From positions 1 to 23,038 of IMG/VR virus record IMGVR_UViG_3300032265_000518: a stretch of DNA of 23,038 nt. One strand, 5' to 3'. The notes under the pieces were generated by a model. It did no database searches, was not told where the DNA came from, and worked only from the letters and a program-made list of their open reading frames with translations. Position numbers and translations under genes: made by a program. Below, piece after piece: positions 2,687 to 21,460 of this stretch. The stretch comes from a virus. Numbering within the stretch: position 1 is the stretch's first letter; each line of letters opens with the position of its first letter.

Positions 2687-2847
2687 TGGCGCAGGATTTT
2701 AAGATCAAATCCGACCAACCCAGAGCGCAGGCTAAGGACGTAGCGCGCGGTAATGCTTCGCCCACCATGGAATACAGGGTATCCTCCATACGCACCCTAG
2801 GTAATAGGGCAGCGCCACGCGCTAATGCGCGTTCGGAAAGGAGGTGA
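2686..2847 (+). CDS. Small basic ORF, 53 codons (doubtful)
   Basis: An ATG shares its A with the portal stop codon (TAATG) and opens a 53-codon frame ending at TGA 2845-2847. The product would be polar and basic (many Arg, Ala and Asn) with no hydrophobic core. Its last codons, AGG AGG TGA, are the Shine-Dalgarno sequence of the next micro-ORF. The coupled start argues for translation. Against it, the 3' half contains two perfect short inverted repeats and the composition is unlike the neighbouring structural genes. It may be a real small gene or an untranslated leader that happens to stay open. No function is proposed. Confidence 0.4.
   Translation: MAQDFKIKSDQPRAQAKDVARGNASPTMEYRVSSIRTLGNRAAPRANARSERR
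2795..2832 (+). promoter_or_regulatory. Two perfect short inverted repeats upstream of the micro-ORFs
   Basis: Two hairpins can be drawn by eye. CCCTA at 2795-2799 pairs with TAGGG at 2805-2809 around the loop GGTAA. ACGCGC at 2817-2822 pairs with GCGCGT at 2827-2832 around a TAAT tetraloop. Neither is followed by a T-run, so they are not simple terminators. They end a few bases before the strong Shine-Dalgarno sequence of the 13-codon micro-ORF. They could act as an mRNA processing or stability element or a translational control structure. The function is inference and no folding energy was calculated. Confidence 0.4.
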
Positions 2848-2851
2848 TACC

Positions 2852-2893
2852 ATGTACAAATCCGTCAAGCGCGGTCGCCGTCGTGGCCGTTAA
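2852..2893 (+). CDS. Arg-rich micropeptide, 13 residues
   Basis: The frame ATG 2852 to TAA 2893 encodes MYKSVKRGRRRGR: 13 residues with five Arg and two Lys. Eight of the 13 residues, the last eight in order, are only Lys, Arg or Gly. Upstream, AAAGGAGGTGAT at 2838-2849 is a full 12-base complement of the usual 16S rRNA 3' end, the strongest ribosome binding site in the window, though it ends only two bases before the ATG. The Arg codons are all CGC or CGT, the forms favoured in highly expressed proteobacterial genes. A second basic micro-ORF with its own strong site follows 39 bases later. I do not recognise the peptide. Roles to consider are charge neutralisation of packaged DNA, as for the much longer microvirus J protein, or a leader peptide. 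Confidence 0.6.
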   Translation: MYKSVKRGRRRGR

Positions 2894-2932
2894 TGCGGTG
2901 TGTTTAACTCTAGCAATGAAAGGAGGTTTCCC

Positions 2933-2965
2933 ATGCGTCGCAAGGGTCGTAAGGCTCGCCGGTAA
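2933..2965 (+). CDS. Arg/Lys-rich micropeptide, 10 residues
   Basis: The frame ATG 2933 to TAA 2965 encodes MRRKGRKARR: seven of ten residues are Arg or Lys, and the remainder are Met, Gly and Ala. It is preceded by AAAGGAGG at 2919-2926, an optimal Shine-Dalgarno core with six bases before the ATG. The arrangement repeats that of the 13-codon micro-ORF just upstream. Two independent strong ribosome binding sites, each in front of a short basic frame with proper stops, make chance less likely than for one alone. The length is far below normal gene-calling limits, so it would be missed by standard annotation. The function is unknown. A DNA-condensing or scaffold-binding peptide is a hypothesis only. 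Confidence 0.6.
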   Translation: MRRKGRKARR

Positions 2966-3090
2966 CTAACGCGCTGCCTTGAGCAGCCGTTAATCCGCGA
3001 CTTCCGCGCGGGACCGGAAGATAAAAATAGTCCCGCTTGACTTTTGCGTAATGTGGGTGTTACGCCCGCAATTGTTAATTGGAGCATCAA
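2966..3090 (+). promoter_or_regulatory. Non-coding interval with several inverted repeats
   Basis: I see no gene here. GCTGC at 2973-2977 pairs with GCAGC at 2983-2987, with outer TAAC/GTTA pairs at 2967-2970 and 2989-2992. CTTCCG at 3001-3006 pairs with CGGAAG at 3015-3020. The competing pair GCGGGAC at 3008-3014 with GTCCCGC at 3030-3036 is followed by TTGACTTTT and could be a weak terminator. GCGTAA at 3046-3051 pairs with TTACGC at 3060-3065. The run of alternatives suggests a structured RNA, an attenuator or a processing site between the micro-ORFs and the next gene. A ribosome binding site (GGAG 3081-3084) closes the interval. All pairings are by eye. Confidence 0.4.
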
Positions 3091-3654
3091 GTGTCCGAAA
3101 GCGTTATGCGGCTGCTGCAAAACCAGCGCCCAAAAGAAGCACCGGAACTGACTGCGCCCCCGCCGGGCGAAGGGGCTTCTGCTGTCCCGCCGATGGCGTC
3201 GCCTATGAGTACGCCGGAACCTAAGATGGGTTCGCGCGAAGCCGCGTTGATTAACGTGGGCATGGCAATGGACTTGATTGAGCAGTCTCTGCCGGCAATT
3301 GGTAGTGAGACTGGCGAAGGGCAGAAGCTGGTAGCAGCTTTGCGTTCGCTGACAGGAGCGATGGGGCCGCGCCGGCAGAAGGTTGGCGAGCTTCAGAATG
3401 CCGAGATTCTTCAGTTGTTGCAGAACTTGCCGCAAGCTGGCGGTGCAACGCCTGAAATGAAAGCTATGGCCGGTATGCCGGCTATTCCTGGCATGGCTGG
3501 TGCTGGTGGGCCTCCGGGTGCGCCGCCGCCGCCGATGCCGGGTGGTATGCCTGGTGGTCCCCCTCCGGGCGGTATGCCGATGCCGGGTGGCCCGCCGCTT
3601 GGTGCTCCCCCAATGCCGGGTGCGGGTGGTCCGCCTCCGGGAATGCCCCGATAG
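3091..3654 (+). CDS. Hypothetical virion-assembly protein with Pro/Gly/Met-rich tail
   Basis: I chose GTG 3091 because GGAG at 3081-3084 lies six bases upstream. An upstream TTG at 3079 keeps the frame open but would overlap that site. The product is 187 residues. Residues 1-45 are Pro-rich and disordered. Residues 47-116 are predominantly helical (INVGMAMDLIEQSLPAIGS and onward). Residues 118-187 consist almost wholly of Pro, Gly, Met and Ala in PGM/GGPP-type repeats, ending GMPR. The gene lies between portal and scaffold/capsid genes in the head block. The low-complexity tail is probably unstructured or forms polyproline-like helices. I do not recognise the family; a scaffold accessory or minor head protein is inferred from position. 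Confidence 0.75.
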   Translation: MSESVMRLLQNQRPKEAPELTAPPPGEGASAVPPMASPMSTPEPKMGSREAALINVGMAMDLIEQSLPAIGSETGEGQKLVAALRSLTGAMGPRRQKVGELQNAEILQLLQNLPQAGGATPEMKAMAGMPAIPGMAGAGGPPGAPPPPMPGGMPGGPPPGGMPMPGGPPLGAPPMPGAGGPPPGMPR

Positions 3655-3850: not shown

Positions 3851-4393
3851 ATGGCTTCTCTTGAAGATTTGAGCTTTGAAACGCGCGATGAGCTTGCTCG
3901 CTTGGCGCGTACCCTTGCTGAAAACCCGGACACTCGCAAGGATTTCCTGCGTTTGACCAAGAAGGCCCAGCCTGGCCTTAATATCCCTGAGTTGGAGATC
4001 GAAGAGTCGGTGGCGCGTTCCACCTCGGCTTCTGAGGCTCGCATTCAGATGCTGGAAGCCAAACTTCAAGAGAAAGATGCTCTTGCTGAGCTTGACCGCC
4101 GCCGTCAGTCGTTGATGAAGCAGGGCAAGATTCGCAGCGAAGATGAAATTCAGGAAGTGGAGAAGGTTATGCTCGAACGGGGCATTACCAACCACGAAAC
4201 AGCGGCGGATTACCATCGCTGGATGAAGGAAGCGGCGGCCCCCACGGCTTCCTCCTTCAACATGAATGTGCTGGACGGCAAAGCGCGCGATACTCTCCAA
4301 GCGTATTGGAAGAATCCGCAGCGTGCAGCGCGTGACGAGGCGTTCAAGGCTCTTGCGGAAATGCGCAACCCGCGCCGTCCCATCGGTCTCTGA
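3851..4393 (+). CDS. Probable scaffolding protein
   Basis: This 180-residue protein is almost entirely helical and highly charged, and lies immediately upstream of the major capsid gene. Residues about 55-110 form a likely coiled coil (EARIQMLEAKLQEKDALAEL and onward). The C-terminus from about 145 is helical and ends in a basic MRNPRRPIGL. Scaffolding proteins of podoviruses such as P22 are helical, weakly conserved, coded next to the capsid gene, and bind the capsid through a basic C-terminal helix, which fits here. There is no protease motif, so capsid maturation by a scaffold-fused protease is not suggested. The call depends on position and helical character, not on sequence identity to a known family. 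Confidence 0.65.
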   Translation: MASLEDLSFETRDELARLARTLAENPDTRKDFLRLTKKAQPGLNIPELEIEESVARSTSASEARIQMLEAKLQEKDALAELDRRRQSLMKQGKIRSEDEIQEVEKVMLERGITNHETAADYHRWMKEAAAPTASSFNMNVLDGKARDTLQAYWKNPQRAARDEAFKALAEMRNPRRPIGL

Positions 4394-4423: not shown

Positions 4424-5440
4424 ATGCCAATTGGTGGTGGTATTCTCCCCGCATCGGGGAGCACGCAGTACACAGAACTGACCTACCTTACTCGTAGGGC
4501 GTTTATTCCGAAGCTGGTTGTCCAGATTTACAACAGCACTCCGCTTATGGCGGCGCTGATTGCAAATAGCCAGCAGGCCACGGGCGGTGTTTCGTCTGTG
4601 ACTGTGCCGGTGCAGGGCAGCCAGTTTATCAATGCTCAGTGGTCGGATTACTCTGGTTCGTTCACTCAGCCCGCGGTGCAGCAAGGCGCGTATAACGCCG
4701 AGTTTAACCTGAAGCTGATGATTGCTCCGGTGCCGTTCCTGGGTATGGAAGGCGCTGTGCAGCAGGATCACGCGGTTATCCCGCTGATTGAAGCCCGCAT
4801 GAATGACGCGACCAACGTCATGATGGATGCGATGGCGACGGCGCTGTACAACAACACCACGAACACTCAGCAGTTTATTGGTCTGCCGGGCGCTGTGGAT
4901 GACGGCACCACGCTGGGCACCTACGGCAACATTGCCCGCTCTACCACGGTCAATACCTGGTGGCGCTCCAAGGTGTACGCGGCTGGTTCGGTCAACCCGA
5001 CCCGTCAGAACGTCCTTCAGTACATCAGCGGCACGGTCAAAAACGGCGCGGAAGTACCAACCTTTGGTGTGTGCGGCTTTGGTACGTGGACCTTGCTCGC
5101 GCAGGACTACGTTGGTCAGGAGCAGTACGTTATCACGCCGGGTTCCGGCTTTGACGGCGATGCAAATGGCCCGCAGGCTGCGTTCCGTGCGCTCATGGTT
5201 GCCGGCGTGCCGATCTATCCCGATCCGTACTGCCCCGAAGGCACCATGTACTTCCTGAACACCAACTACCTGTCGCTGTACATCCACGATCAGGGTTCGT
5301 TTGTGTTCACGGGCTTTGAATCCACCCTGCCTAACTGGCAGATTGGTTATGTCGGTGCCGTGCTCATGATTGCGGAGTTGGTGAATACCAAGCCTCGCGC
5401 CATGACCAAGGTCACTGGTTATAACAACCTAACGATCTAA
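4424..5440 (+). CDS. Major capsid protein (HK97-type)
   Basis: This 338-residue protein starts at ATG 4424 with AGGAGA at 4413-4418. It has the pattern of HK97-fold capsid proteins. An N-terminal segment (TELTYLTRRAFIPKLVVQIY) precedes a region like the E-loop and spine (VTVPVQGSQFINAQWSDYSG). There follows a long helix (IPLIEARMNDATNVMMDAMA, about 125-144) and an A-domain near the C-terminus ending in a beta-rich LMIAELVNTKPRAMTKVTGY. The protein contains several Trp and aromatic residues, few Cys, and has codon use consistent with strong expression. Its position after the scaffold and before small head proteins is standard. It would assemble the icosahedral shell. Confidence 0.85.
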   Translation: MPIGGGILPASGSTQYTELTYLTRRAFIPKLVVQIYNSTPLMAALIANSQQATGGVSSVTVPVQGSQFINAQWSDYSGSFTQPAVQQGAYNAEFNLKLMIAPVPFLGMEGAVQQDHAVIPLIEARMNDATNVMMDAMATALYNNTTNTQQFIGLPGAVDDGTTLGTYGNIARSTTVNTWWRSKVYAAGSVNPTRQNVLQYISGTVKNGAEVPTFGVCGFGTWTLLAQDYVGQEQYVITPGSGFDGDANGPQAAFRALMVAGVPIYPDPYCPEGTMYFLNTNYLSLYIHDQGSFVFTGFESTLPNWQIGYVGAVLMIAELVNTKPRAMTKVTGYNNLTI

Positions 5441-5452
5441 GGAGGCAGAACA

Positions 5453-5815
5453 ATGGCTCTCGGTCTAAACAAGATCATCATTGCGAACGCCTCGGCCAAC
5501 ACGCCGGGCGCGTATTTGCAGCCTGTGAGTGTTGCCAACGTGGGCGCGGGTAACTCCACCGCCATGTTGAACTCGCAGTTTATCCCGGCTGGCACCTACC
5601 TGATGCTGCCCGCGGCCAACGTCACGGTGGAAGTCAACAACTACACGGGGACGGCAAATAGCTGGTCCACGCTGTTGGCTAACAACGTCGGCGGTGTGCT
5701 GATTTCGGACGGCTTCAACGTGCGCGCCAACGCAACCACGGGTACGCAGACTGTTACGCTGCTGACCGTGAACGGCGGCGGCAACGTGTCCAGCGGCTCC
5801 GGCACGGCTTGGTAA
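5453..5815 (+). CDS. Small beta-rich head protein (possible decoration protein)
   Basis: This 120-residue protein is preceded by AAGGAGG at 5439-5445, a strong ribosome binding site overlapping the capsid stop. It is rich in Ala, Asn, Thr, Val and Gly, with alternating hydrophobic strands (GTYLMLPAANVTVEVNNYTG; TQTVTLLTVNGGG) and no Cys or long helix, as expected of a small beta-sandwich or jelly-roll. Position right after the capsid gene and strong translation signals suggest a capsid decoration protein made in large amounts. No family is recognised, so this is inference. A minor tail-vertex protein is an alternative. Confidence 0.7.
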   Translation: MALGLNKIIIANASANTPGAYLQPVSVANVGAGNSTAMLNSQFIPAGTYLMLPAANVTVEVNNYTGTANSWSTLLANNVGGVLISDGFNVRANATTGTQTVTLLTVNGGGNVSSGSGTAW

Positions 5816-5827
5816 GGGAGGTTAACC

Positions 5828-6292
5828 ATGGCTAATCCTGATGCAGTAGCCCAAAATACGCAGGACTTTTTTGGTTCTTACCGAATTGCTTTTGCGTCCG
5901 GGCAGTCGCTTGCCAGCACGGGCAACGCCGTGGTTACTCTGCCTGTCCTTAGCGGCGGCATCGGCAGCCCTTACGGCAACGGCTCGTACATCATCCGGCG
6001 TATTACGGTGACCAACCCGTCTAACAGCGCGGGTGGTTCGGTGCCGAATATTGCGACCGCTAACGTGGTGGTGTTTACCTCTAACGATGGTAACACCTCC
6101 AACGCGGTCACAACGTCCGGTGGTCAGACGCTGGGTAACGTGACTGGCGCTTACACCTGGCAAGATTTGACCCTTGCCTCTGGTGCGGCCACCACGGCTT
6201 ACAGCGCGTCCACTTTGTTTGTGAAGGTGGGCACGGCGGTTGCTAACTCCGCGGTGAACTTTACCGTTTGGGGCGATATTGTCTCGCTATGA
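5828..6292 (+). CDS. Beta-rich structural protein
   Basis: This 154-residue protein starts at ATG 5828 with GGGAGGT at 5816-5822. It is dominated by Ser, Thr, Asn, Gly, Ala and Val in a beta-strand pattern (SYIIRRITVTNPSNSAGGSV; TLFVKVGTAVANSAVNFTVW). The type is common among virion surface proteins such as head fibres or decoration proteins. It follows the 120-residue head protein and shares its composition without obvious sequence relation. Its stop overlaps the next start as ATGA. The exact role is unknown. Confidence 0.7.
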   Translation: MANPDAVAQNTQDFFGSYRIAFASGQSLASTGNAVVTLPVLSGGIGSPYGNGSYIIRRITVTNPSNSAGGSVPNIATANVVVFTSNDGNTSNAVTTSGGQTLGNVTGAYTWQDLTLASGAATTAYSASTLFVKVGTAVANSAVNFTVWGDIVSL

Positions 6293-21202: not shown

Positions 21203-21460
21203 ATGGCCTCAGACAGCCTTAGCGTAGGCCGCGGTGAGAAGCTGCCGGCAAGCCGCGGGGCGGGTCTCACGGCCAAGGGTAGGGCGCGCTACAACAAGGC
21301 TACCGGCAGCCGTTTGAAGGCTCCTGCGCCATCGCCCAAGAACAAGCGCGAGAAGGGGCGTAAGTCTTCCTTCTGTGCGCGTATGAAGGGCGTGGTGCGC
21401 AAGGCTAAAGGGCCTGCCACTAGGGCTAGGGCTTCTCTCAGAAGGTGGAAATGCCGATGA
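21203..21460 (+). CDS. Small basic phage protein (DUF6321-like)
   Basis: This 85-residue protein starts at ATG 21203, one base after the previous stop. It is strongly basic. The N-terminus SVGRGEKLPASRGAGLTAKG and the following ARYNKATGSRLKAP, together with SFCARMKGV (Cys58) and a C-terminal RRWKCR (Cys84), match a small conserved phage family that I associate with DUF6321. The two Cys are conserved in what I remember of the family. The function is not known to me; the charge suggests nucleic-acid binding. It is coupled to the next gene by ATGA, and the two genes often occur together in related phages as far as I recall. Confidence 0.7.
   Translation: MASDSLSVGRGEKLPASRGAGLTAKGRARYNKATGSRLKAPAPSPKNKREKGRKSSFCARMKGVVRKAKGPATRARASLRRWKCR

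Follow-up and report, generated by a model that had tools for sequence, protein, structure and literature searches.

The Microviridae proteins J and VP8 are rich in arginine and lysine and are important for DNA packaging; in SpV4, VP8 has 38 residues and a C-terminal anchor (Phe38) that is buried in the capsid (PMC11281519). Adenovirus Mu (protein X) is an Arg-rich peptide of 19 residues, present at 100–300 copies per virion, which binds dsDNA and helps to condense it (PMC7998265). A pseudoknot can also stand in the leader of the gene for a nucleic-acid-binding phage protein, as in the T4/RB69 gene 32 operator, where a pseudoknot of ~28 nt at the 5′ terminus precedes >40 nt of less structured sequence (PMC535899). 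Like J (phiX174, G4, alpha3) and VP8 (gokushoviruses, SpV4), the two peptides described here, micropeptide 1 (MP1) and micropeptide 2 (MP2), are tiny and highly basic, and each has its own gene near capsid genes.

The window, i.e., the whole stretch of DNA analysed, is IMG/VR virus record IMGVR_UViG_3300032265_000518, and its 23,038 b are the whole of its assembly. An initial annotation of this DNA had proposed two closed frames, of 13 and 10 codons, between portal and scaffold genes. Both frames are present, in the following setting:

1073–2686, + strand: portal protein gene, 537 aa (PHROG 1216, E=1.4e-10; Pfam SU10_portal, E=5.8e-9)
2686–2847, + strand: small gene of 53 aa between the portal gene and MP1, conserved in most relatives
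2837–2848, + strand: MP1 Shine-Dalgarno (SD) site, AAAGGAGGTGAT, its GGAGG core 7 nt from the ATG
2852–2893, + strand: MP1, MYKSVKRGRRRGR, 13 aa with 7 K+R, stop TAA; read as an open frame
2919–2926, + strand: MP2 SD site, AAAGGAGG, its GGAGG 6 nt from the ATG
2933–2965, + strand: MP2, MRRKGRKARR, 10 aa with 7 K+R, stop TAA; read as an open frame
2973–2987, + strand: hairpin GCTGC-CTTGA-GCAGC immediately 3′ of MP2, read from the sequence (no score in the terminator scan)
3037–3065, + strand: weak promoter-like TTGACT-N17-TTACGC ahead of the next operon, read from the sequence (no score in the consensus scan)
3094–3654, + strand: next gene, a Pro/Gly/Met-rich protein without a PHROG or Pfam match
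3851–4393, + strand: putative scaffold protein, 180 aa, proposed from position and composition; no database match
4424–5440, + strand: major capsid protein gene (PHROG 9953, E=5.1e-37)

The database matches bear out the portal gene upstream. The scaffold assignment fared less well, since the gene at 3094–3654 matches no PHROG or Pfam family, and the frame at 3851–4393, just ahead of the major capsid gene, is an equally good scaffold candidate. The GGAGG-to-ATG distances, 7 nt for MP1 and 6 nt for MP2, are near-ideal. Six bases had been given correctly for MP2, but the full SD complement of MP1, said to lie two bases from its ATG, is separated from it by three (ACC). The ATG of the 53-aa gene overlaps the portal stop codon (TAATG) and its TGA stop falls within the MP1 SD site. 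This gene, which has no PHROG or Pfam match, is absent from the deepest branches of the family; its product has a basic C-terminus and, in relatives, a conserved "DQPR" stretch. Another small Lys/Arg-rich protein of the window phage is a basic DUF6321 protein of 85 aa (Pfam PF19846, several PHROGs of unknown function), encoded at 21203–21460.

Relatives were gathered from IMG/VR by the portal protein alone, so that the choice of loci was independent of the micropeptides. The 144 loci with at least 450 b 3′ of the portal gene were searched, within 450 b, for ATG frames of 7–20 codons with a K+R content of at least 45% and an SD match of at least 4 bases. At least one SD-led basic micropeptide of this kind was found in 143/144 loci, two in 113/144 and three in 11/144, the sole exception (L048) having ATA in place of the ATG of its near relatives. 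Elsewhere on the same contigs, 7 of 1943 segments of the + strand were positive (one being a displaced copy of the same gene) and 1 of 2224 of the − strand, as were 67 of 14,400 first-order Markov simulations; on the + strand of the window, MP1 and MP2 are the only two SD-led basic micro-frames. Because the control segments and simulations fall so far below 143/144, chance frames were rejected, as the initial annotation had anticipated in calling them hard to explain by chance.

Codons and peptides were compared in 92 non-redundant regions of relatives, of which 80 contain MP1 and all 92 contain MP2. The family consensus is MYKxxKRGRKTRR for MP1, with Tyr at position 2 conserved in many members, and M(A)RKxRKGRK[AGS]RK for MP2, in which a small residue, Arg and Lys recur with period 3, and with R at −5 and K at −4 each in 90/92 regions. 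Lys and Arg make up about half or more of the residues, acidic residues are almost absent, and the C-terminus is R or K in nearly all micropeptides. Lengths are 9–17 aa in the window's relatives, mostly 10–14, and reach ~25 in one clade.

Conservation acts on the peptides while the DNA diverges freely, third codon positions being the most variable: pairwise differences at codon positions 1/2/3 were 0.175/0.163/0.448 for MP2 and 0.40/0.31/0.61 for MP1. The synonymous share of codon changes was 0.56 in MP2, compared with 0.31 for randomly placed changes, and 0.41 in MP1, compared with 0.17; an identical peptide, MYKKMKRGRKTRR, is encoded by 8 different DNA sequences in 8 loci. The micropeptide Arg codons are mainly CGT/CGC, as had been pointed out, amounting to 618/687 (90%) against 149/260 (57%) in large genes of the window. 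An SD-type site (at least 4 matching bases) precedes every micropeptide gene counted in the relatives. With start codon, SD site, frame and stop conserved and change biased towards synonymous codons, as expected of translated micropeptide genes, these patterns make it almost certain that MP1 and MP2 are real protein-coding genes. A conserved RNA structure does lie nearby in relatives, as it might if this were an untranslated DNA or RNA element with incidental short frames. That explanation is exceedingly improbable, given the third-position pattern, the excess of synonymous change, the retention of ATG, SD and stop, and the identical peptides made from divergent DNA; conserved RNA without translation was rejected by the codon-position and synonymous tests. 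Both comparisons proposed in the initial annotation thus came out on the side of the genes, the basic frames being conserved in related genomes and synonymous change being in excess.

The comparison shows that a large family of phages, tailed and uncultured, keeps the MP1-MP2 tandem module as the 3′-terminal part of its portal operon. Besides the portal protein and a tailed-phage major head protein, relatives have terminase genes; two MAG contigs of relatives point to different phyla, giving no host assignment. In a blind IMG/VR scan with a degenerate MP2 core, the 120 stretches listed contained 118 matches, of which 116 were in this family, membership being judged by the family portal, capsid or neighbouring genes on the contig. 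A wide spread in unrelated phages was rejected, since the matches listed came from essentially this family only. No counterpart was found in nine loci of distant capsid relatives (23–30% identity), among them Mx9, BUCT555, TM7 phage, Mwe-JY13 and ppBjS10J-1.

The divergent loci L186, L262 and L269 lack the 53-aa gene and continue with an unrelated gene, but they keep both MP1 and MP2. When the two most divergent portals (L186 and L262) served as queries, at least one micropeptide was present in 22/22 loci read, several of them near-copies, and micropeptides persist at ~50% portal identity, where the following gene differs. Universality within the family was nevertheless rejected by the divergent-portal tests, which uncovered two clades, L289-like and L466-L506-like, with no micropeptide anywhere in the 5–7 kb read, the stretch behind the portal gene included; these clades came up with queries from two MAG-derived relatives. 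Because they belong to the same family, the function is dispensable or replaceable. Pooling all portal-derived loci gave micropeptides in 197/278, which is no estimate of prevalence because the two peptide-free clades had been targeted deliberately. On a FastTree portal tree rooted at the midpoint, presence and absence require four changes, with L288 scored as absent by the K+R threshold although it carries a longer form; since the deepest branches carry both genes, this is most simply read as two clades having lost them.

L288 and the related L453-L464 have Pro/Met/Lys forms of 18–25 aa at the MP1 position (e.g., MYGKPPMKKNPMRTGKRK), and this MP1 relative is both longer and less basic; such a form is possibly another state in the history of the micropeptides. 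In the L289 clade and its neighbours (L289, L403, L411), the gene that comes next behind this position encodes a protein whose N-terminal part is strikingly acidic (EEEVETEE...), a feature seen both where the micropeptide is absent and in an MP1-only sister group.

Most relatives have an H-type RNA pseudoknot between MP1 and MP2 (examples are L083, with MP1 ATG at 4758 and MP2 ATG at 4878, and L150), and in L186, L533 and L534 it lies before the first micropeptide. It consists of a 4-bp stem (such as AGGG/CCCT) in which the loop strand GGCTGNNT pairs with ANNTGGCC further on. In 64 distinct sequences, 92.8% of cells pair and changes on both sides occur in 8 of the 12 pairs. Compensatory cells number 76, compared with 19.9 (sd 3.2) in shuffled versions, which do not remove relatedness, and at most 14 in slid versions, which keep it. 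Whole stems are swapped in deep or divergent members (GAAG/CTTC in L533; TTCTGCTC/GAGTAGAA in L063), and in one subclade the second stem contains a C-A mismatch that is conserved. Covariation alone was used as evidence because a generic pseudoknot finder proved too loose, calling 64/276 shuffled sequences positive. A candidate micro-ORF, "MAAFPLK", in the MP1–MP2 spacer of relatives was dropped once its sequence was explained by the pseudoknot with its covarying stems; likewise, a "boxB-like" GNRA hairpin ahead of the pseudoknot was rejected, a GNRA tetraloop occurring in only 13/70 best stems.

The second stem ends 19–24 nt from the MP2 ATG in 70/75 loci, ~22 nt being typical. A scan with the pseudoknot core gave at least 134 matches, all of those listed being in this family, and a micropeptide follows in 129/129 of the matches listed with enough downstream sequence. 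Rfam gave no match at E<=1 in six loci from relatives carrying the pseudoknot, and no family in the window at gathering thresholds. The pseudoknot is absent from the window's own subclade. SD matches are mostly 4–6 in 72 regions with the pseudoknot and 5–8 in 20 regions without it, a contrast of p ~1e-6, uncorrected for descent. The simplest inference from these sequences is that the pseudoknot may set MP2 initiation, the window's subclade using a full SD site instead; linked to the micropeptides in this way, it would be a new regulatory RNA.

Many relatives have a hairpin or intrinsic-terminator-like stem 3′ of the last micropeptide and a TTGACA-type promoter ahead of the next gene; this places the micropeptides at the end of the portal operon and not at the head of the next. 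The equivalent sites in the window are weak and received no score in the consensus scan. Directly ahead of MP1 in L262/L269 is a promoter-like TTGACA...TATATT/ATAAT. In L534, two micropeptides, MARRGRRVKRGKK and MRKSHRAKRKSRR, lie ~84–240 b after the portal stop with a GC-rich stretch and T run, resembling an intrinsic terminator, between them, so that the two may be on separate transcripts there. From the SD sites, the CGT/CGC Arg codons and the promoter-like sequence of L262/L269, we infer that MP1 and MP2 are highly translatable.

We propose that MP1 and MP2 would be translated late and with high efficiency, each by way of a separate strong ribosome-binding site, yielding many copies of free peptides of 10–14 residues with ~7–8 positive charges. 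Their target would be nucleic acid, most probably the genomic DNA during head assembly and filling, where they would partly neutralise charge or serve as guides, much as Microvirus J/VP8 and adenovirus Mu do. In most relatives the pseudoknot ~22 nt 5′ of the MP2 start may additionally control MP2 translation, its place being taken in the window's subclade by the full-length SD site. For the proposal as a whole, late and efficiently translated free basic peptides acting on nucleic acid in head assembly or packaging, we judge the chances to be even. Nucleic-acid binding of some kind is probable from the sequences. A function in the virion or in packaging, suggested by composition, by position in the portal-to-capsid gene block and by analogy with VP8/J and Mu, is a tentative reading to which we give slightly less than an even chance. 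By our estimate, the charge on a few hundred copies would offset no more than a few per cent of a ~35-kb genome, and a specific partner is indicated because the fixed R/K places in MP2 exceed the needs of pure charge neutralisation. The lack of micropeptides in two clades likewise speaks against a role that is electrostatic and nothing more.

A packaging role has two main rivals, RNA binding and an assembly function with a protein partner. Small arginine-rich regulators that bind RNA are exemplified by lambda N, which binds boxB, and the peptides may likewise bind RNA instead of packaged DNA, as they would in repressing the mRNA that encodes them, or a neighbouring one, via a leader hairpin or pseudoknot. 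The covarying pseudoknot at a near-fixed distance from MP2 in most relatives, the micropeptide that follows it in every listed match with enough downstream sequence, and the residue-specific conservation of K and R all fit such a regulator, as does the precedent of T4 gp32, which represses its own mRNA through a pseudoknot (PMC535899). However, subclades that lack the pseudoknot, the window's included, still have the peptides, so that the pseudoknot depends on the gene and not the peptide on the pseudoknot; we regard RNA regulation as unlikely. That the peptides are assembly cofactors, binding portal, scaffold or capsid through a short linear basic motif and not nucleic acid, would agree with their location between the portal and capsid genes, with the fixed period-3 pattern of R, K and small residues, and with the Tyr at position 2 of many MP1 sequences. 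Yet capsid and portal are still recognisable in the peptide-free clades, and this role seems to us quite unlikely.

The initial annotation had mentioned leader or ribosome-stalling peptides, which would control the downstream operon by attenuation and whose product would itself be irrelevant. Polybasic nascent chains can slow ribosomes, the frames are very short, SD-led and 5′ of a structural operon, and hairpins follow MP2. Against this stand the dominance of the common and efficient Arg codons CGT/CGC, conservation at the level of residues with synonymous freedom, and the two to three tandem copies. Moreover, many relatives have hairpins or terminators followed by a separate TTGACA-type promoter for the downstream gene; deep branches have another gene in that place yet retain the peptides, and L262/L269 carry a promoter-like sequence that belongs to the peptides themselves. 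This alternative is accordingly disfavoured, and we hold it to be very unlikely. Highly improbable is a role as host-directed polycations that, late in infection, disturb the nucleoid, RNA or membranes of the cell: the translation signals are strong and free polycations of this kind generally bind nucleic acids and membranes, but the genes adjoin head genes in every locus read and no amphipathic pattern is visible. The reading of the initial annotation is, overall, partly supported.

As genes in their own right for free peptides of 9–14 residues, MP1 and MP2 are far under the length limits of ordinary gene finders. In the public relatives MW202825 and MW202753 the micropeptide genes are unannotated; hypothetical proteins are placed over them on the opposite strand (5779–6039 (−) in L082; 4740–4877 and 4874–5038 (−) in L083), and from the sequences these opposite-strand frames look like false genes. 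A small-ORF catalogue for phage genomes was reportedly produced by Fremin et al. in 2022. We found no description of this micropeptide family in the papers searched, and small-ORF catalogues may already include it; ORF prediction in GMSC starts at 30 nt (PMC11364881), so that frames of this size may be present in catalogues without having been recognised. Conserved ten-codon phage genes do exist, and they are recognisable by synteny combined with codon evidence.

Among the known systems, several peptides of ~11 aa are encoded in series on one transcript in Drosophila tarsal-less/pri. The likeness to MP1 and MP2 is in architecture only, since tarsal-less/pri is a eukaryotic developmental signal with a different sequence motif. 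In contrast to the gene 32 operator, the MP2 pseudoknot lies ~22 nt before the start codon and between two cistrons, and autoregulation is hypothetical here. A combined reading, in which the peptides are tandem protamine-like organisers of virion DNA, their output is set by a new class of H-type pseudoknot and they bind this pseudoknot themselves as a feedback switch, is decidedly unlikely; if the protamine-like reading were true, these Arg/Lys peptides of 9–14 residues would be among the smallest conserved protein-coding genes known.

The initial annotation had likened the micropeptides to J and VP8. The analogy is reasonable in that they are basic, have their own genes and lie in a morphogenesis region; in length, anchor and virus type it breaks down. 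Whereas J and VP8 have ~25–40 aa and a C-terminal hydrophobic or aromatic anchor, the phage peptides have mostly 9–14 aa and no hydrophobic anchor; their genes stand in tandem, two or three together, and the virus is a tailed phage with dsDNA. J and VP8 belong to the Microviridae, with an F/VP1-type capsid and ssDNA, whereas genes for a portal and a tailed-phage major head protein are found here. Since length, C-terminal anchor and virus type fail, the micropeptides are, on their sequences, not shown to be members of the J/VP8 group. The phage peptides fit adenovirus Mu in Arg/Lys-rich composition and in size (at most ~20 aa), and they may also share its binding of viral dsDNA in the virion; Mu is cut from a precursor of ~79 aa by the viral protease, whereas the phage peptides would be translated directly at 9–14 aa. 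If they act on packaged DNA, MP1 and MP2 would represent an equivalent of J/VP8 and Mu in tailed phages and would offer a minimal system in which to study the effects of short polycations on genome packing.
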